The position numbers and the translations under genes are program-made. Source: Archangiaceae bacterium (GTDB lineage: Bacteria; Myxococcota; Myxococcia; Myxococcales; Myxococcaceae). From it: DNA of 35,518 bases. This document shows positions 146 to 35,518 of the stretch, in pieces (within the stretch, counting starts at the first letter, position 1; every line of letters begins with the position of its first letter). Location of the stretch: assembly GCA_016879935.1 (NCBI GenBank), contig JAACJQ010000263.1, positions 1 through 35,518 of the forward strand, written 5' to 3'. The notes below the pieces were generated by a model, which had not been told where the DNA came from, did no database searches, and saw only the letters and a list, made by a program, of their open reading frames with translations.

Positions 146-1276
146 TCACGCTGCCTTCAAGAGCGACTCATTCGCGTACTGAAACGGCGGTGCCGGCCGG
201 CCGAAGTAGTACCCCTGCATCCACTCGATGCCGAGCACGCTGAGCACCTCGCGTTCGGCTTCGGTCTCGATGGCCTCGGCGATCACCTGCGCGCCCAACT
301 CCCTGGCGAGCTCGAGCATCGACGCTACCACCAGCTGCTGCTTCCCCGACTTCGGGAGCCCCCGCACGAGCGAGCCATCGAGCTTCACGAAGTCGGGCTC
401 GACGGCCGCGAAGGTCGACAGCCCCGCGTAGCCCGCGCCGAGATCGTCGACCGCGAGCCGGAACCCGAGGCTGCGCAGCGAGAAGAGCTTCGACTGCAGC
501 GCGTCGATCTCCTCGAGGCTGGCGCGTTCGGTGATCTCGAGCACGCACCGTCGCGCGATGCGTGACAACGGCGCGTCGGGCGAGATCAGGTGGGGATCGT
601 CCAGGTCGGCCGGGTGCGCGTTGACGAACAGCAGCGCATCGTCTGGCAGATGCACTGCGTCGCGCGCGACCGTGTCTCGAATCTTCCGCCCCAGCTCGTG
701 CAGCCGCGAGGTCTCCTCGGCCAGCTTGAGCAGCTCCATCGGGTCCTTCGCGCCTTCACGGCAGCGCACCAGCGCCTCCCAGGCGACGGTGCGGCGCTCG
801 TTCGTTCCCACGATCGGCTGATAGGCCATGTGCAGCGTCGCCAACGCGCGGTCGAGCTTCTGGTGCAGCAGGGCCGGCGCGTTCGACGAGCGCGAGCGCA
901 CGGCCTGCGTCACCACGTCGACCAGCACGTCGACCTCGAAGGGCTTCTGCAGCATTCGCAGCGCGCGGTGCTCGAGGGCCTGCATCGCCGTTTCGACCGT
1001 CGGGTGGCCGCTCATCAGCACCACGGGCATCGCGACGTCGAACGCCCGAATGGCCTTCAGCAGCTCGACGCCGTCGACGTTCGGCATGCGCACGTCGGAG
1101 ACGACCGCATCGAACCGACCGTTCTTGAGGCGATCGACGACATGGCGCGGGTCGCCGAGCCCTTCGACGGTGAAGCCGGCGCGTTTGAGCACCGCGGTGC
1201 AGACACGCAGGAACAGATCGTCGTCGTCGACCACGAGGATCGTACCCGGACAGGTCGTGAAGAGAGGGGAGGACAT
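146..1276 (-). CDS. Response regulator with EAL domain (c-di-GMP phosphodiesterase)
   Basis: This 376-residue protein joins a receiver domain (about 11-125) to an EAL domain (about 135-370). The receiver has the acidic cluster D17-D20, the phospho-acceptor D61 in VVSDVRMP and K111. The EAL domain has E167 of the EAL signature, N219, E247 in LEITE, D277-D278 in the DDLGAGY loop, K298, E334 and the QGYYFGRP end motif. The metal and catalytic positions therefore look intact, and it should hydrolyse c-di-GMP to pGpG under control of a partner histidine kinase, which is not in the window. The start at 1276 is chosen because GGAG lies 5 bases upstream and the receiver begins soon after. An upstream ATG at 1372 would add 32 residues with no domain. 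It is divergent from pccB. Confidence 0.9.
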   Translation of the reverse strand: MSSPLFTTCPGTILVVDDDDLFLRVCTAVLKRAGFTVEGLGDPRHVVDRLKNGRFDAVVSDVRMPNVDGVELLKAIRAFDVAMPVVLMSGHPTVETAMQALEHRALRMLQKPFEVDVLVDVVTQAVRSRSSNAPALLHQKLDRALATLHMAYQPIVGTNERRTVAWEALVRCREGAKDPMELLKLAEETSRLHELGRKIRDTVARDAVHLPDDALLFVNAHPADLDDPHLISPDAPLSRIARRCVLEITERASLEEIDALQSKLFSLRSLGFRLAVDDLGAGYAGLSTFAAVEPDFVKLDGSLVRGLPKSGKQQLVVASMLELARELGAQVIAEAIETEAEREVLSVLGIEWMQGYYFGRPAPPFQYANESLLKAA

Positions 1277-1469
1277 GGTGGCTCCGGGTGAAAACAGCCT
1301 GTGCTTGAGCAAGGTGGGTGCCGTGACGAAGCCGAGTGCTCTCAGGGACCTGAAGCGTCGGGCCTGAGTCACCGGTACCCACGGAGGCCAAGCTGACCCG
1401 CCCCTGAAGTCCTGCTGACAGGCCGGGTTACGGCGGATTCGAATGTCGATCGTGCGGCCTTTGAGCGCG

Positions 1470-1478
1470 TGCTAGGCG
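1470..1478 (+). promoter_or_regulatory. -10-like element of pccB, probably leaderless
   Basis: TGCTAGGCG contains an extended -10-like TGnTA. The hexamer TAGGCG ends 8 bases before the ATG at 1487, and no Shine-Dalgarno sequence lies between. Transcription would start at or next to the start codon. No convincing -35 box is seen. Confidence 0.5.
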
Positions 1479-1486
1479 CCGCCGTC

Positions 1487-3055
<1,569 letters not shown>

Positions 3056-3071
3056 GCGATATGACGGGGCC

Positions 3072-3629
3072 GTGAAAGGCGCCCGAAGACAGCTGCTCCT
3101 GTGGCTCGGCGTGGCGGTGCTGCTCGTCGGCGTCGCGCTCCTCTTGCCCGGCGACGTCGTGTTCGTGCTGGCCGGTGCAGCGTGGGGCCTGGGCATCGCC
3201 GGCTTCGTCGCTCGCGGCCGCTACGGCAAGGCGAGGGCGCTGCTCTCGGCGAAGCAGTACGAGGCGGCCTTCGACGAGCTGCTGGCCTTCGAGCAGCAGG
3301 TTCGGCGCGACGGCTGGCGGCGCTCGCTCGCGTTCCTCTACACGGGCTTTCACACCGGCGACCCGCTCGCGCTCACGCGCTGCTACCAGGGCGTCGTGCG
3401 GCTGGAGCAGGGAAGACTCGTCGAGGCCGAGGCGCTGCTGAAGTCAGCCGTGGAGCAGGACCCTGCCTACGGCCTCGCGTGGGCCAACCGGGCCATCGTC
3501 GCGGCGTCGATGGGTGACGAAGCCTCGGCGCGTGCGCACCAGGCGGCGGCCCGGCAGAACGGCGTCACTGGCAGCACGCTCGAACGCACCATCGCCGCCG
3601 CGCTGTCGAAATCCACGTCATCGAACTGA
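3072..3629 (+). CDS. Membrane-anchored TPR-like protein
   Basis: A 185-residue protein with two adjacent hydrophobic segments (about 8-25 and 28-47) followed by a soluble helical part. Residues from about 55 to 165 have alternating Ala/Leu-rich helices, with an A-x-x-x-L-x-x-A-x-x-x-D-P pattern near 125-140, typical of tetratricopeptide repeats. It is probably a membrane-tethered scaffold; no enzymatic motif is seen. The GTG start at 3072 lies 16 bases after the pccB stop, so co-transcription with pccB is likely, and sixA follows 7 bases downstream. No specific family is recognised. Confidence 0.7.
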   Translation: MKGARRQLLLWLGVAVLLVGVALLLPGDVVFVLAGAAWGLGIAGFVARGRYGKARALLSAKQYEAAFDELLAFEQQVRRDGWRRSLAFLYTGFHTGDPLALTRCYQGVVRLEQGRLVEAEALLKSAVEQDPAYGLAWANRAIVAASMGDEASARAHQAAARQNGVTGSTLERTIAAALSKSTSSN

Positions 3630-3636
3630 GGCCCAC

Positions 3637-4095
3637 ATGCAGCTGTTCCTGATTCGACACGCGATCGCGGAGGAGGGCGCCGACGACGACGCGCGTGCGC
3701 TGACGAAGAAGGGCCGCGCGCGCTTCGACGACACCATTCGGTTGCTCGAGGCGCTCGACGTTCGGTTCGACCTCGTGCTCCACAGCCCGAAGTTGCGCGC
3801 CGTGCAGACGGCGCAGCGCCTTCATCGGCTCGTCGAGGGAGACTTCGAGGTCACGCCGCTCCTTGTCGAGCCTCCCTCACGGGCACTGCTCGAGGCGTGT
3901 GAGGGTGATCGAGTGGCGCTCGTCGGTCACGAGCCGTCGTTGTCGGCGCTGCTGGGGTGGTTGGTGACGGGGCGGCCGGCCGGCGGTGCGTTCGAGCTCA
4001 AGAAGGGCGCGGTGGCCTGCCTCGAGGGTGAGCCGCGGCCGGGGAAGATGACGCTTCGCTGGTTGATTCCACCGAAGGTCGCGCGGGCGTGCTGA
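3637..4095 (+). CDS. sixA: SixA-type phosphohistidine phosphatase
   Basis: A 152-residue member of the histidine phosphatase (phosphoglycerate mutase-like) superfamily. It has the catalytic LIRHA motif with R7 and H8, the second arginine R54 in SPKLRAVQTA, and the second histidine H98 in LVGHEPS. Length and order match SixA, which removes phosphate from phosphohistidine on histidine phosphotransfer (HPt) proteins. A short sequence upstream of the ATG at 3637 (TGAGG) is a weak ribosome site. Its stop codon overlaps the start of the CHAD gene, so the two are probably translated together. The natural phosphoprotein partner cannot be read from this window. Confidence 0.85.
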   Translation: MQLFLIRHAIAEEGADDDARALTKKGRARFDDTIRLLEALDVRFDLVLHSPKLRAVQTAQRLHRLVEGDFEVTPLLVEPPSRALLEACEGDRVALVGHEPSLSALLGWLVTGRPAGGAFELKKGAVACLEGEPRPGKMTLRWLIPPKVARAC

Positions 4096-4721
4096 ACCTG
4101 GCTGGCGAGACCCGGGCGCTCCGGCGGCTGGTGTCGCGGTGCCGTGCGCGAGGGAGCGCCGACGACGTTCACGAGCTGCGGGCGACAGCGAGGCGGCTCG
4201 AGGTCTACCTGCGGCTCCTGAAGTGGCAGGTGTTGCGGGCCGATCTGCACCGGCTGATTCGGGCGCTCGGGCCGCTGCGTGATTGCGACGTCGCGAGCCA
4301 GGCGACGCTTGGCCTCGGGTTCGAGCAGTGGCTCGTCGCGCGTCGGGCGGGCGAGCTGGCGCGTATGCGTGCCGAGTTGGGCGCGCCACGAGTGGCGGCG
4401 TTGCTGACGGCGCTCGACGCGCTCCCCGGCCTTCACCTGGGCACGGCGAAGCAGGTCGGCCGAAAGCTCGAGGTCGCGGCGGCAGAGCGCCGTGGTTCGG
4501 GCTTCGAGGCGCTCCACCGCTCGAGGCGGGCGGCGCGGCGGGCGCGGCTGGCCAGAGCGTGGCTCGGTGAAGACGTCACGGCGCTCAAGCAGCGACAGCA
4601 GCTGATGGGCGTGGCGTGCGACTTGTCGTGTCTTTCGCGGCTGCTCCGCGAGTTCGGAGACGAGCGGAGCGCCAGCGTCTGCGACCGGGGCATCGAGCGG
4701 CTGGTCGGCTGCTTCAGCTGA
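4089..4721 (+). CDS. CHAD domain protein
   Basis: A 210-residue all-helical protein rich in Arg and Leu. The segment DVHELRATARRLEVYLRLL (about 25-44) matches the CHAD signature H-x-x-R-x-x-x-R-R. A second HRSRRAARRAR stretch near 145-155 is the usual repeated half. CHAD domains (conserved histidine alpha-helical domains) bind polyphosphate through these basic residues. At 210 residues this copy is short for the family. It starts with GTG at 4089, inside the end of sixA, a 7-base overlap that suggests translational coupling. No CYTH or triphosphate tunnel enzyme domain, the common partner, is present. Confidence 0.75.
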   Translation: MLNLAGETRALRRLVSRCRARGSADDVHELRATARRLEVYLRLLKWQVLRADLHRLIRALGPLRDCDVASQATLGLGFEQWLVARRAGELARMRAELGAPRVAALLTALDALPGLHLGTAKQVGRKLEVAAAERRGSGFEALHRSRRAARRARLARAWLGEDVTALKQRQQLMGVACDLSCLSRLLREFGDERSASVCDRGIERLVGCFS

Positions 4722-4724
4722 AGA

Positions 4725-5885
4725 TCACTTCAGCTGGGCGGCCTTCTTCTCGAGCTCGGCGGCCTTGCGCTTGAGCTCTTCCGCGAGCCCCTGCAGCTTG
4801 CGGCGCTGCACGTCGAGGTCGTCCATCTCGTCTTCGTCGCCCGTAGCGATGCTGCGCGTGCCACCGCCCACCTGCGGACGGGCATCGGAGCTGCTGGTGA
4901 TGGACAACCCTCGCGAATCGAGCGCGCCGTTCGCCGTGCCCGCGCTCTTGCTCGCGCCGCCGGGCGCGGAGTTGGAGAAGTCGGTGGCTTCTCCGGCGCG
5001 GGCGGCAGGTGCTCCGAAGGCGCCCAGCGGAGGGAACGATGGCGGCGGCACCTGAGGCGCGCTGCCAGCGGTGACGGGCCCCTGGGTCGGCGCGGCGTTG
5101 TCGGCGGCGAAGCTCGACTCGGTGTTCGAGACTCCGGCGGTGCGCGACGGCGCGGTAGGCGCTTCGCCCGCCACGGTGTCCTTGCGCTGCAGCCGCAGGC
5201 GGCGATCCTGGTCGTCGAACATCGACTCCTCGCCCATGAAGCGCTGCACGCGGCGATCGAGCTCGACCTCGTCACGACGCTGGGTGATGCGCGCGTCGAG
5301 CGCCTTGAGCTCACGACGAACCTTCTCTTCGTTGTCGCGCAGCAGGTCGGCCTGCTCGAGCAGCTCTTCGGGATCGTCGGTCGGCTTGAGGGCGTCGAGG
5401 GTGGGCAGCTTCGCGGCAGGCAGCGCGGCGCGAACCGACTCACGCTCGGCGCGGAGGCGGCGCATCTGGTCGATGAGGGTCTTGCGGGCCGTGCGGTCGG
5501 TCTGGCGATCGAACTCGCCACGCAGGCGAGTCAGCTCGGCCGACAGCCCGTCGAGCAGGGCCAGGTTTGCGCTCTCGAGCTCGGCTTCACGGCTCGACAA
5601 CTTCTGGGCGAGATCGGTAAGCGAGCCCGACAGCTCCTGGGAGCGCTTGAGCGCCTGGTCGAGCTCGGAGCCCGGCAGCAGCGCGCCCTTCGACTCCGCC
5701 TTGAGCGCTTCGATGCGGCCCGAGACCGTCGAGAGCTCGTTGCGCTTGCTGAGCTGCTCACCACGCAGCTGGCTCACCTGCGCCCGAAGGCCAGCCGAGT
5801 TCGCGCGCATCGCCTCGACGCCGGTCGCCGACCACGCCTGCGAGGCGAGGAGGGTGAGGCAGAGGAGGGCGGCGCGGAGCTTCAT
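4725..5885 (-). CDS. Exported coiled-coil protein of unknown function
   Basis: A 386-residue protein with a cleavable-type signal peptide (basic MKLR, hydrophobic core, cleavage near SQAWSA at about 20). Residues 25-230 are a long Leu/Glu/Arg/Gln-rich heptad region, predicted coiled coil. Residues 235-345 are Pro/Ala/Gly/Ser-rich and probably disordered. A short charged C-terminal helix (about 350-386) follows, rich in Lys, Leu and Glu with repeated AAELEKKAAQLK-like heptads. It probably acts as a periplasmic or envelope spacer. No catalytic motif and no known family name is recognised. It is convergent with the CHAD gene, with only 3 bases between the stops. Confidence 0.7.
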   Translation of the reverse strand: MKLRAALLCLTLLASQAWSATGVEAMRANSAGLRAQVSQLRGEQLSKRNELSTVSGRIEALKAESKGALLPGSELDQALKRSQELSGSLTDLAQKLSSREAELESANLALLDGLSAELTRLRGEFDRQTDRTARKTLIDQMRRLRAERESVRAALPAAKLPTLDALKPTDDPEELLEQADLLRDNEEKVRRELKALDARITQRRDEVELDRRVQRFMGEESMFDDQDRRLRLQRKDTVAGEAPTAPSRTAGVSNTESSFAADNAAPTQGPVTAGSAPQVPPPSFPPLGAFGAPAARAGEATDFSNSAPGGASKSAGTANGALDSRGLSITSSSDARPQVGGGTRSIATGDEDEMDDLDVQRRKLQGLAEELKRKAAELEKKAAQLK

Positions 5886-34016: not shown

Positions 34017-34094
34017 CGTCTCATCGCGCGCGATGCGTCATCTCGTCAGGGAGCGCGGCGGAGCGGCGTCCAATCGCCCCAGAAGGAGCCCGCC

Positions 34095-34178
34095 ATGATG
34101 CCCATCACGTTCTTCAGCCTGACGACGTTCGATGCCTGCTTCGGCGCTGATGCGGCCCTTCTGATTCCCCTTCGCTGA
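34095..34178 (+). CDS. Possible 27-residue small ORF before the tRNA array
   Basis: ATG at 34095 has a near-perfect AAGGAG 7 bases upstream and opens a 27-codon frame (MMPITFFSLTTFDACFGADA...) ending at TGA 34178, 16 bases before the first tRNA. Only the ribosome site supports it. It has no recognisable motif and could be chance or a leader peptide. Confidence 0.3.
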   Translation: MMPITFFSLTTFDACFGADAALLIPLR

Positions 34179-34194: not shown

Positions 34195-34266
34195 GGTTCG
34201 TGACGCCTCTGGTGAGGCGAGTGGCTTGTCACGCCATCGAGACGGGTTCGACTCCCGTACGAACCG
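34195..34266 (+). tRNA. tRNA-Asp(GTC)
   Basis: The cloverleaf is complete: a 7-bp acceptor GGTTCGT/ACGAACC, D stem CGCC/GGCG, anticodon stem with loop TTGTCAC (anticodon GTC at 34228-34230), and T arm ACGGG-TTCGACT-CCCGT. The discriminator is G, as expected for Asp. Positions 8 and 14 are G and T rather than the usual U8-A14 pair. No CCA is encoded. Confidence 0.8.
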
Positions 34267-34363
34267 CAGTGGTCGTGATGCCGGGCTGGCAGTGGTGGTC
34301 CATGCAGCCGCCTGAAGAGCGGAACATTCTGGTTCGATTCCAGAGCTCGGCGCAGTCGTGATG
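34266..34363 (+). repeat. Related spacers between tRNAs
   Basis: The spacer after tRNA-Asp (34266-34280) and the one after tRNA-Phe (34352-34363) share GCAG, an optional TGG, and TCGTGATG. TCGTGATG occurs again at 34557-34564 at the scaffold start, and GCAGTG lies just before tRNA-Asp (34182-34187) and GCAGTGGT after tRNA-Gly (35426-35433). Confidence 0.6.
34280..34352 (+). tRNA. tRNA-Phe(GAA)
   Basis: Acceptor GCCGGGC/GCTCGGC (one G-U pair), T arm TCTGG-TTCGATT-CCAGA, and anticodon loop CTGAAGA (anticodon GAA at 34314-34316). The top pair of the anticodon stem is G-A and the D stem has only three good pairs. The discriminator is G where Phe tRNAs usually have A. No CCA is encoded. Confidence 0.7.
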
Positions 34364-34446
34364 TCCAGGTGGATGAAATGGAAGACACGCCGCGCTCAGA
34401 CCGCGGTGCCCAGTCGGGCGTGCGGGTTCGACTCCCGCCCTGGATA
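34363..34446 (+). tRNA. tRNA-Leu(CAG)
   Basis: A class II tRNA. Acceptor GTCCAGG/CCTGGAT with a terminal G-U, D arm with GG, anticodon loop CTCAGAC (anticodon CAG at 34397-34399), a variable stem GCCC/GGGC, and T arm GCGGG-TTCGACT-CCCGC. Discriminator A suits Leu. No CCA is encoded. Confidence 0.85.
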
Positions 34447-34465
34447 TGTGAAGCGTTGACCCCGC

Positions 34466-34536
34466 CGGAGCGTGGTCCAATGGAAAGATTCGCGGCTGAT
34501 AACCGTGCGACGAAGGTTCGATTCCTTCCGCTCCGA
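34466..34536 (+). tRNA. tRNA-Ile(GAT)
   Basis: Acceptor CGGAGCG/CGCTCCG, anticodon stem CGCGG/CCGTG around loop CTGATAA (anticodon GAT at 34498-34500), T arm GAAGG-TTCGATT-CCTTC, discriminator A. The D stem has three pairs including one G-U. No CCA is encoded. Confidence 0.8.
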
Positions 34537-34561
34537 TGAGTGCTGGTAGCGTCGTGTCGTG

Positions 34562-34930
34562 ATGCTGGAGCACTTCGAGAATCCACGAAACGTCGGCACC
34601 CTCGACAAAGCAGCGCCCGACGTGAGCTCGGCGCTCGAGAAGTCGGGGCAGTGCGGGCTGGTCGTTCGGGCGCAGCTGCAGTTTGGCCTCGATGGTCGCG
34701 TCGTGGAGTGCCGGTGGAAGACGTTCGGGTGTGGCGCGCTCGTCGGGTCGATGTCGTGGCTGAGCGAGTGGGCCCGCGGGCGGGCGTTGACCGAGCTGTT
34801 GGCGCCGCCGATGGCGTTGCTCACGGAGGAGCTCGCGCTCACTGGAGACCGGCTGCACTGTGGTGAGTTCGCGGCGACGGCGTTGCGGAGCGCGGCGGAG
34901 CAGGCGCTCGCGAAGCTGGCTGCGAAATGA
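34562..34930 (+). CDS. IscU/NifU-like Fe-S cluster scaffold protein inside the tRNA array
   Basis: A protein of 122 residues (ATG at 34562, or 123 from GTG at 34559). HFENPRNVG at the N-terminus is the IscU/NifU opening motif. Counting from 34559, C32 (SGQCGL), C58 (TFGCGA), H100 and C101 (LHCGEF) fill the ligand positions of E. coli IscU C37, C63, H105 and C106. The conserved Asp after the first Cys (D39) is Leu, and the chaperone-binding LPPVK before the last Cys is LTGDR. The N-terminus is about 8 residues shorter than IscU. It may hold or pass an Fe-S cluster without the usual partners, or be a diverging copy. No ribosome binding site is seen; the start lies 25 bases after tRNA-Ile. An IscS-like desulfurase is absent from the window. 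Confidence 0.8.
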   Translation: MLEHFENPRNVGTLDKAAPDVSSALEKSGQCGLVVRAQLQFGLDGRVVECRWKTFGCGALVGSMSWLSEWARGRALTELLAPPMALLTEELALTGDRLHCGEFAATALRSAAEQALAKLAAK

Positions 34931-35164
34931 GGCGTCGAACGCTGTGTCAGGCCGGGCGTCGCCTTGACGTCCAGGGTTGCATGATTTCCAGCGCGAACAA
35001 TTCGATGTGGTCGCCCGGGTCGAAGTATCCGTCGCCGAGCGGCTCTTCGTCGAAGGGTCGTGTGCTGCCCAGCGCTTGAACGCTCTTTGACGAGAGCATT
35101 CACGAGGCCGGGTGGCGAAAGCTCCCCGGCCTCTTCTGCTTTTCTGACGTGCAATTCATCACAT
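34931..35164. other. Non-coding gap inside the tRNA array
   Basis: No tRNA, T-arm (GGTTCGA) or convincing gene is found here. The gap holds a 5-bp hairpin GCTCT/AGAGC (35082-35097) and a stronger stem just after it. A TTGAAC at 35077-35082 could be part of a promoter for the downstream tRNAs, but no good -10 follows. Confidence 0.5.
35104..35143 (+). terminator. Intrinsic terminator-like hairpin
   Basis: GAGGCCGGG (35104-35112) pairs with CCCGGCCTC (35125-35133) around a 12-base loop and is followed by the T-rich TTCTGCTTTT. It lies about 170 bases after the scaffold gene and before tRNA-Tyr. Confidence 0.65.
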
Positions 35165-35253
35165 GGACGGAATGTGACCAATGGTGGTCCAGCGGGCCGT
35201 AACCCCGCCGCTCGTTCGCGCGAGCATGGTGAGTTCGATTCTCACTCCGCCCA
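35165..35253 (+). tRNA. tRNA-Tyr(GTA), somewhat degenerate
   Basis: A class II tRNA with anticodon stem GCGGG/CCCGC around loop CCGTAAC (anticodon GTA at 35199-35201), variable stem GCTCG/CGAGC, T arm GTGAG-TTCGATT-CTCAC and discriminator A. Deviations: C at position 33 in place of the near-universal U, an A-C mismatch at the third acceptor pair, and two extra bases before the D stem (GACC/GGTC). No CCA is encoded. It may be weakly functional. Confidence 0.65.
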
Positions 35254-35259
35254 CTCTTC

Positions 35260-35332
35260 GGGTCCGTAGCTCGACTGGCAGAGCAAGCGCCTCTTACGCG
35301 CGAGGATGAGGGTTCGACTCCCTCCGGTCCCA
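35260..35332 (+). tRNA. tRNA-Lys(CTT)
   Basis: Acceptor GGGTCCG/CGGTCCC with a T-T mismatch at the fourth pair, D stem GCTC/GAGC, anticodon loop CTCTTAC (anticodon CTT at 35293-35295), T arm GAGGG-TTCGACT-CCCTC, discriminator A. The top pair of the anticodon stem is A-G. No CCA is encoded. Confidence 0.78.
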
Positions 35333-35336
35333 CAAT

Positions 35337-35408
35337 GCGGGTGTCGCCAAGCGGGAAGGCATCAGGCTTCCACCCTGACACGCGCGGGTTCGATTCCCGC
35401 CACCCGCT
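35337..35408 (+). tRNA. tRNA-Gly(TCC)
   Basis: Acceptor GCGGGTG/CACCCGC, anticodon stem TCAGG/CCTGA around loop CTTCCAC (anticodon TCC at 35369-35371), T arm GCGGG-TTCGATT-CCCGC, and discriminator T as in bacterial Gly tRNAs. The D arm (GCCAAGCGGGAAGGC) looks more like that of tRNA-Gln. No CCA is encoded. Confidence 0.85.
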
Positions 35409-35446
35409 TCTGGTTGTGATTGGGAGCAGTGGTGCTTCAGCCGCTC

Positions 35447-35518
35447 TGAAAGTGATCCACCCGCCGGCGTGAAACTGATCCACCCCAGGTTGGACTTCCA
35501 GCCTACTTGGACTTCGTC
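35447..35518. mobile_element. Possible IS21-family element end (cut by window edge)
   Basis: Two direct repeats, TGAAAGTGATCCACCC (35447-35462) and TGAAACTGATCCACCC (35470-35485), differ at one base and lie 23 bases apart. Tandem copies of TGAAANTGAYCCACC are known from the multiple terminal repeats of IS21-like elements. No istA or istB is within the window, so this is a fragment or the start of an element beyond the edge. Confidence 0.45.

Follow-up and report, generated by a model that had tools for sequence, protein, structure and literature searches.

Accessory tRNA arrays occur on the bacterial chromosome, as exemplified by the ICEAfe1-type arrays of Acidithiobacillus. Transcription attenuators of the trp/his type control genes for biosynthesis or for aminoacyl-tRNA synthetases and carry leaders with runs of a single amino acid, and T-box riboswitches bind uncharged tRNA directly, with no need of a leader peptide. 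Leader-peptide transcription attenuators have been surveyed (PMC2965389). In Mycobacterium, tRNA array units are found on chromosomes, giant linear plasmids and phages (PMC5966550, PMC12803027), and phage tRNAs have been proposed to evade host tRNases through mutations in the anticodon loop (PMC10264068). The function of accessory tRNA arrays has been disputed so far, in the absence of a regulatory clue. Here we analyse an array from an Archangiaceae bacterium and propose, with a probability of about 0.7 judged from sequence comparison, that it is a spare tRNA set under translation-coupled transcription attenuation, which would sense the depletion of particular tRNAs.

An accessory tRNA array and its insertion sequence

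The window, meaning the whole stretch of DNA analysed, is the entire 35,518-nt contig C214 of a 9.5-Mb draft assembly in 445 contigs. A previous sequence-only reading had described seven tRNA genes for seven amino acids on one strand within 1.2 kb, and we confirmed this array on the plus strand (Table 1). ARAGORN calls five of the genes (Phe, Leu, Ile, Lys and Gly); Infernal with RF00005 (gathering score 29 bits) adds tRNA-Asp, the remaining matches to this model also exceeding 29 bits; and tRNA-Tyr, a type-II tRNA, was recognized from a below-threshold match to the tRNA-Sec model (30.5 bits, E 0.0013) combined with reading by eye. Given that the whole 9.5-Mb genome yields 55 tRNA matches above the Rfam cut-off, seven within 1.2 kb lie far above chance. 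The lack of an encoded CCA, also remarked on earlier, is not a distinctive trait, as few other tRNA genes of the genome encode it. Odd ARAGORN calls of tRNA-Ile(AAT) occur close to the ends of two other contigs (L053 on C277 and L054 on C23).

An IscU-like ORF lies inside the array, outside the leader module described below. It is divergent, retaining three Cys and having lost both the CGD motif (its aspartate) and the LPPVK motif, and the normal IscU of the genome sits on C428. Searches of 195 genomes of the phylum, of IMG/VR and of 84,980 genomes gave no close relative. We considered this ORF as the key to the locus and set it aside, as these searches found no close relative and the other arrays examined showed no such ORF.

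At its right edge the window runs into the left end of an insertion sequence (IS) that is IS21-like by appearance. This left end is common to four contigs (C214, C6, C417 and C418) and the right end to two (C379 and C21), and the 5-mer AGTGG adjoins the IS on both C214 (left end) and C379 (right end). Because the same 5-bp duplication stands on both sides, we infer that C214 and C379 flank one IS insertion, a join that rests on this duplication and is not assembled. With the orientation of the array kept, C379 continues with Asn-GTT, Pro-CGG, Met-CAT, Ser-CGA, Ser-GGA and Ser-GCT, the three Ser genes having been read by eye and two of them also giving weak tRNA-Sec matches. So joined, the array would have comprised 13 tRNAs before the IS entered at the 5' edge of the Asn gene. 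The bordering IS had been taken as a sign of acquired DNA; the duplication does not support this and points to an IS inserted into a pre-existing array. Beyond the array, C379 (L039, about 900–5250) carries a transglutaminase-like gene, and reading by eye suggests a heavy-metal P-type ATPase and a CzcA-like fragment there as well.

Table 1. Features of the array and its leader modules (positions in the window, contig C214, except in the last line)
Feature	Position	Strand	Basis and remarks
Unit a promoter-like motif, GTCAG-N17-CGTC	34045..34070	+	motif search
Unit a leader ORF, MMPITFFSLTTFDACFGADAALLIPLR and stop	34081..34178	+	Shine-Dalgarno AGAAGGAG, ATG at 34095
tRNA-Asp (GTC)	34195..34266	+	Infernal, 46.6 bits
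tRNA-Phe (GAA)	34280..34353	+	ARAGORN and Infernal; G37 in anticodon loop
tRNA-Leu (CAG)	34362..34447	+	ARAGORN and Infernal
tRNA-Ile (GAT)	34466..34536	+	ARAGORN and Infernal
IscU-like ORF (NifU_N)	34562..34930	+	inside array, next to tRNA-Ile
Unit b promoter-like motif, TGTCAGG-N16-CGTC	34945..34971	+	5 exact matches in the 9.5-Mb genome
Unit b leader ORF, MISSANNSMWSPGSKYPSPSGSSSKGRVLPSA and stop	34981..35079	+	Shine-Dalgarno weak
Predicted antiterminator	35064..35116	+	folding; 35064-35070 with 35110-35116, 35077-35080 with 35099-35102
Hairpin P1, enclosed by the predicted antiterminator	35082-35086 with 35093-35097	+	folding
Intrinsic terminator, GAGGCCGGG..CCCCGGCCTC and T-rich tract	35104..35143	+	folding, -25.9 kcal/mol
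tRNA-Tyr (GTA)	35165..35252	+	tRNA-Sec model, 30.5 bits; C33 in anticodon loop (by eye)
tRNA-Lys (CTT)	35260..35333	+	ARAGORN and Infernal; identical in congener G003
tRNA-Gly (TCC)	35337..35408	+	ARAGORN and Infernal
Target-site duplication AGTGG	35428..35432	+	partner copy adjoins the other IS end, contig C379
IS left end, running off contig	35433..35518	.	shared contig ends
Six further array tRNAs	C379 (L039), about 6168-5655	-	profile matches and eye

A syntenic housekeeping cluster was rejected: the host has its own copies for most anticodons, and the congeners have no tRNAs at this site. Separate genes with the same anticodon exist in the genome for Asp, Phe, Leu-CAG, Lys-CTT, Gly-TCC, Tyr, Asn, Met and all three Ser species, the exceptions being Ile-GAT and Pro-CGG, for which no second copy was found in this draft. 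The earlier view of an accessory array is thereby upheld, as its alternative of sole copies syntenic in relatives does not describe the locus, apart from these two anticodons. The array tRNAs share 55–76% identity with the genome's own isoacceptors and up to 100% with the accessory arrays of congeners (Lys 1.00 and Gly 0.97 in G003; Gly 0.99 and Asn 0.95 in G004), and by these identities they appear to be a separate tRNA family, with no recent duplication. Synteny with six congeners extends until about 34,030–34,049, just upstream of a TetR gene (90–95% identical), and is then lost; none of the six has tRNAs at the syntenic position. The next gene in four of these congeners has its counterpart elsewhere in this genome, on C335. 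As an opposite flank of an insertion C335 was rejected, since it carries the ancestral neighbours and then ordinary genes, so the site is a rearrangement breakpoint and no clean insertion.

Searching 96 genomes of the family at the DNA level revealed arrays at other chromosomal sites, several of them at one conserved place. Where relatives' arrays were fully read they contain up to 27 tRNAs, mostly on one strand, with about one per amino acid or isoacceptor. The distribution is patchy, the only matches in three genomes of the same genus (G001, G002 and G005) being housekeeping tRNAs and the IscU gene, and the arrays are rearranged among congeners. An HNH endonuclease gene lies within the array in several genera of the family; none is present in the window or on C379, and it is not a necessary feature of tRNA array units. 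At L144, L147–L149 and L152–L154 this endonuclease has 180 residues and an AAA/ClpB-like gene with a PCRF domain lies downstream, an arrangement kept in several genera. At L145, L149 and L151 a ThiF-family gene and an 83-residue protein with no Pfam match occur together upstream of arrays, possibly as an E1/ubiquitin-like pair.

The array tRNAs score low (40–62 bits). Comparison of the Phe genes of 16 arrays, which are 95.2% paired and in which 12 pairs have changed on both sides (0 of 500 shuffles), indicates from these compensatory changes that the cloverleaf is kept by selection and that the array tRNAs are selected for folding.

The leader module and its predicted RNA structures

Across 41 genomes, 49 array units open with a promoter motif of the tRNA type followed by a short leader ORF, and nearly all of them, unit b of the window included, have an intrinsic terminator between this leader and the first tRNA. 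The sequence-only reading, whose interpretation as an accessory array is supported and whose spare set against tRNA cutting is the favoured role, had missed these leader and attenuator modules, which would supply the mechanism. The elements follow the order of motif (GTCAG-N16/17-CGT(C/A)), leader ORF with a usually strong Shine-Dalgarno sequence, a small variable hairpin and a terminator of the general form GAGGCCGGG...CCCGGCCTC with a short T tract, and the layout recurs at fixed spacing upstream of the first tRNA in unrelated neighbourhoods. The window holds one full module, at 34945–35143 between the IscU-like ORF and tRNA-Tyr and directly 5' of the latter, with motif, leader ORF, antiterminator and terminator. 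Unit a (motif and leader, 34045–34178) precedes Asp-Phe-Leu-Ile, and no terminator was found between its leader and tRNA-Asp; it has either decayed or works by another route. Unit b fits the full scheme but is now interrupted by the IS. In genomes with at least two array units (L154/L155, L167 and L170), each unit has its own leader and terminator.

The promoter motif is present in 48 of the 49 leaders, against a background of 0.0023 per 85 nt, and usually lies some 51 nt ahead of the leader ATG, with a distance of 35 nt in unit b of the window and in G066. It is also found upstream of 28 of 46 housekeeping tRNA genes (for example L011, L017, L018, L022 and L025), so it looks like the tRNA promoter of the lineage, one resembling ECF-type motifs, and we rejected it as a signature specific to the arrays. 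In two genomes, the same motif lies 46–70 nt before a gene resembling GatB/YqeY (L329 in G098 and L355 in G028). The motif recognized by ECF41 sigma factors is TGTCACA-N16-CGTC (PMC3426412), and an array-specific ECF41 promoter was rejected on the same 28 housekeeping genes. By contrast with the motif, the terminator was found upstream of none of the 46.

Leaders were selected by start site, Shine-Dalgarno sequence and stop position and never by composition, the two in the window having been chosen by eye. In 33 leaders, the leader frame has no internal stop in 1607 codons, versus 84 and 15 in the other two frames, and GC content at the three codon positions is 0.51/0.55/0.83. The frame, together with the codon bias and the start site, points to probable translation of the leaders. 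Their residues change freely, with nonsynonymous far exceeding synonymous change, so that frame and stop position are kept and the peptide is not; this is to be expected of a leader, and equally of a non-coding stretch. The leader stop lies 24–40 nt before the terminator.

In a predicted antiterminator, the last codons of the leader and its stop pair with the 5' arm of the terminator hairpin, which would thereby be excluded. When the 3' arm of the terminator is left out of the folded transcript, this pairing forms at the same position in 33 of 33 leaders, at −15 to −26 kcal/mol. The pairing sequences themselves differ, being GCCCGACUCCUGC with GCAGAGGCCGGGC in one group and GCCACCCACUUCCUGAA with UUCACGAGGCCGGGUGGC in congeners, and leaders paired with their own partners reach −20.7 versus −19.05 when partners are swapped, swaps doing as well in 0 of 20,000 trials. 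Unit b of the window reaches −15.5 kcal/mol, which alone is not significant (43 of 200 shuffles). In G036, from another family of the order (L312), two clusters of 7 and 18 tRNAs share a strand, and this terminator type stands 40 nt upstream of the first cluster; we resolved no leader there whose Shine-Dalgarno sequence was clear.

The module is also present in the virus Rctr197k (KX853510), from a methane-oxidising enrichment, which has 30 annotated tRNAs preceded, as read by eye, by a Tyr-like gene. Its leader, upstream of the array, has 52 residues including all 20 amino acids, and is followed by a spacer of 25 nt, itself folding into a hairpin, and then by the terminator; the antiterminator (−28.5 kcal/mol) outscores each of 500 shuffles as well as the other 43 leader windows. 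Together with matches of array tRNAs to phage and plasmid tRNAs, this fits a mobile origin. Rctr197k is the only phage found with the module, a simple detector having identified no full module at eight other phage and plasmid arrays, and HNH relatives of Rctr197k in IMG/VR are not linked to arrays. As a probe for phage arrays, the terminator sequence alone was discarded: of the 80 viral contigs that it retrieved, one contained a lone tRNA and none an array.

The leaders match the arrays they precede. In the first set of loci, coverage of leader residues by the amino acids of the leader's own array was 0.581, versus 0.521 (s.d. 0.009) after permutation (0 of 20,000), and in held-out loci fetched afterwards it was 0.555 versus 0.468 (s.d. 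0.014; 0 of 20,000). Since related sequences weaken any single permutation test, we added one with a single leader per cluster (<55% identity), which gave 0.544 versus 0.447 (s.d. 0.016; 0 of 20,000). Both leaders of the window rank first of 33. In that of unit a, the residues F, L, D and I are abundant; 12 of 26 correspond to the tRNAs of its unit (D, F, L or I), and 10 of 26 codons are readable by them, against 3.1 expected. In unit b, 24 of 31 residues match the nine tRNAs of the unit and 20 of 31 codons are readable, against 10.8 expected; one-third of this leader is serine and C379 encodes three Ser tRNAs, whereas Tyr, Lys and Gly by themselves would account for no more than 6 residues. 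Elsewhere, the G066 leader MTSSTFQFRHQLHRRLSLRLPTL precedes His-Phe-Arg-Leu, and two paralogous leaders of G114, nearly identical over their first 22 positions and then divergent, are G/L-rich before Gly-Leu and D/R-rich before Asp-Arg, a pair with counterparts in G028 and G098. Leaders of large arrays include nearly all amino acids. Some small arrays (G097, G093b and G006) match their own leader no better than others do and are probably fragments.

These regularities bear on the view that the locus is a decaying array of mobile or phage origin, now without function, in which the hairpin is an ordinary upstream terminator and the ORF a chance frame. Such decay would account for the IS interruption, the rearrangement among congeners and the low tRNA scores, and the terminator type is indeed common, 79 of 80 viral contigs bearing it without an array nearby. 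We nonetheless regard it as very unlikely, given the compensatory changes that maintain the cloverleaf, the fixed spacing of motif, leader, antiterminator and terminator in unrelated neighbourhoods, and the match of leaders to their own arrays.

A proposed circuit and its alternatives

The architecture, comprising array, leader frame, terminator, alternative pairing and leader-array match, is well supported by the comparisons above. That the switch works in cells, and that it is controlled by ribosome stalling, we infer by analogy with established trp-type attenuation; more weakly still, its natural trigger may be cleavage of tRNAs by nucleases, in competition or phage conflict, and not amino-acid starvation. 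As we envisage it, transcription would start at the promoter type also used by ordinary tRNA genes, and a ribosome would translate the short leader, whose codons are mainly those of the tRNAs encoded downstream. When these tRNAs are plentiful, the ribosome would reach the leader stop and cover the end of the leader, blocking the antiterminator, so that the terminator would halt transcription before the first tRNA. Were one of the matched tRNAs depleted, the ribosome would stall earlier, leaving the leader end free to pair with the 5' arm of the terminator; with the antiterminator formed, RNA polymerase would enter the array and produce replacement tRNAs with altered anticodon loops. Weak points of the scheme are the short T tracts and the weak Shine-Dalgarno sequence of unit b.

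Altered loops are indeed frequent. C33 occurs in 40 of 321 array copies and in 0 of 42 host loops, the latter taken from one genome, and most array Phe and Tyr copies have G37. These changes fit the proposed escape from anticodon nucleases (PMC10264068), and could also be drift. To a third reading, a regulated tRNA set that adjusts decoding through position 37 and C33 and so alters the translation of a subset of messages under stress, we give an even slighter chance than to decay: the systematic loop changes in Phe, Tyr and others would suit it, but the array anticodons duplicate housekeeping ones and read common codons, and the leader-array match would be left unexplained.

The same attenuator might also respond to amino-acid starvation or to a general slow-down of translation, the array then serving the resumption of growth or development. 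Classical attenuators sense uncharged tRNA, large-array leaders sample nearly all amino acids, and the chromosomal position of the family arrays, several at one conserved place, would be in keeping with such a role. Extra tRNA genes would, however, be no help when amino acids are short, the array tRNAs are divergent with altered loops, and the module occurs in a phage as well; we consider starvation an unlikely signal. A spare set against tRNA cutters is the most likely role. On balance, we lean towards a feedback circuit, judged from sequence, in which stalling on a multi-codon leader senses the loss of individual tRNAs and calls up spare, nuclease-resistant copies, across the family and a phage, with leaders evolving along with array content.

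Given that the leader codons are those of the downstream tRNAs, the array would answer a shortage of those very tRNAs. This makes the anti-nuclease hypothesis directly testable, would provide a natural means of sensing how individual tRNAs fare, and could allow the leader to serve as a list of the tRNAs attacked in nature.

Comparison with described systems

Both tRNA array units and leader-peptide attenuators are known; in the open-access literature searched, we found no report that joins the two as attenuated tRNA arrays, nor one of myxobacterial arrays. The locus resembles the tRNA array units of Mycobacterium in being dense, on one strand and of mixed specificity, with anticodons redundant with chromosomal tRNAs and a putative anti-defence role, and the mycobacterial arrays embed an HNH endonuclease gene, as do those of the window's relatives. 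The two differ in that the mycobacterial arrays examined have no module of leader ORF, antiterminator and terminator; leaders or attenuation go unmentioned in PMC12803027. Like the phage anti-tRNase tRNAs (PMC10264068), the array would replace depleted tRNAs by loop-altered copies, but no sensing or regulation is described for those, and the genes studied here are chromosomal and stand behind a matched leader. It is accessory and chromosomal, as are the ICEAfe1-type arrays of Acidithiobacillus. As in T-box riboswitches, the state of tRNA would be sensed and transcription controlled, Infernal having found no T-box match in the window. In mechanism it resembles the trp/his-type attenuators, which share the leader ORF, its stop near mutually exclusive antiterminator and terminator structures, and ribosome stalling as the predicted signal; unlike them, the genes controlled here would be tRNAs, and the leader mixes the codons that those tRNAs read. 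If confirmed, this would be a new circuit, extending attenuation from biosynthetic genes to tRNA genes, in which tRNA supply controls tRNA genes through matched codons.
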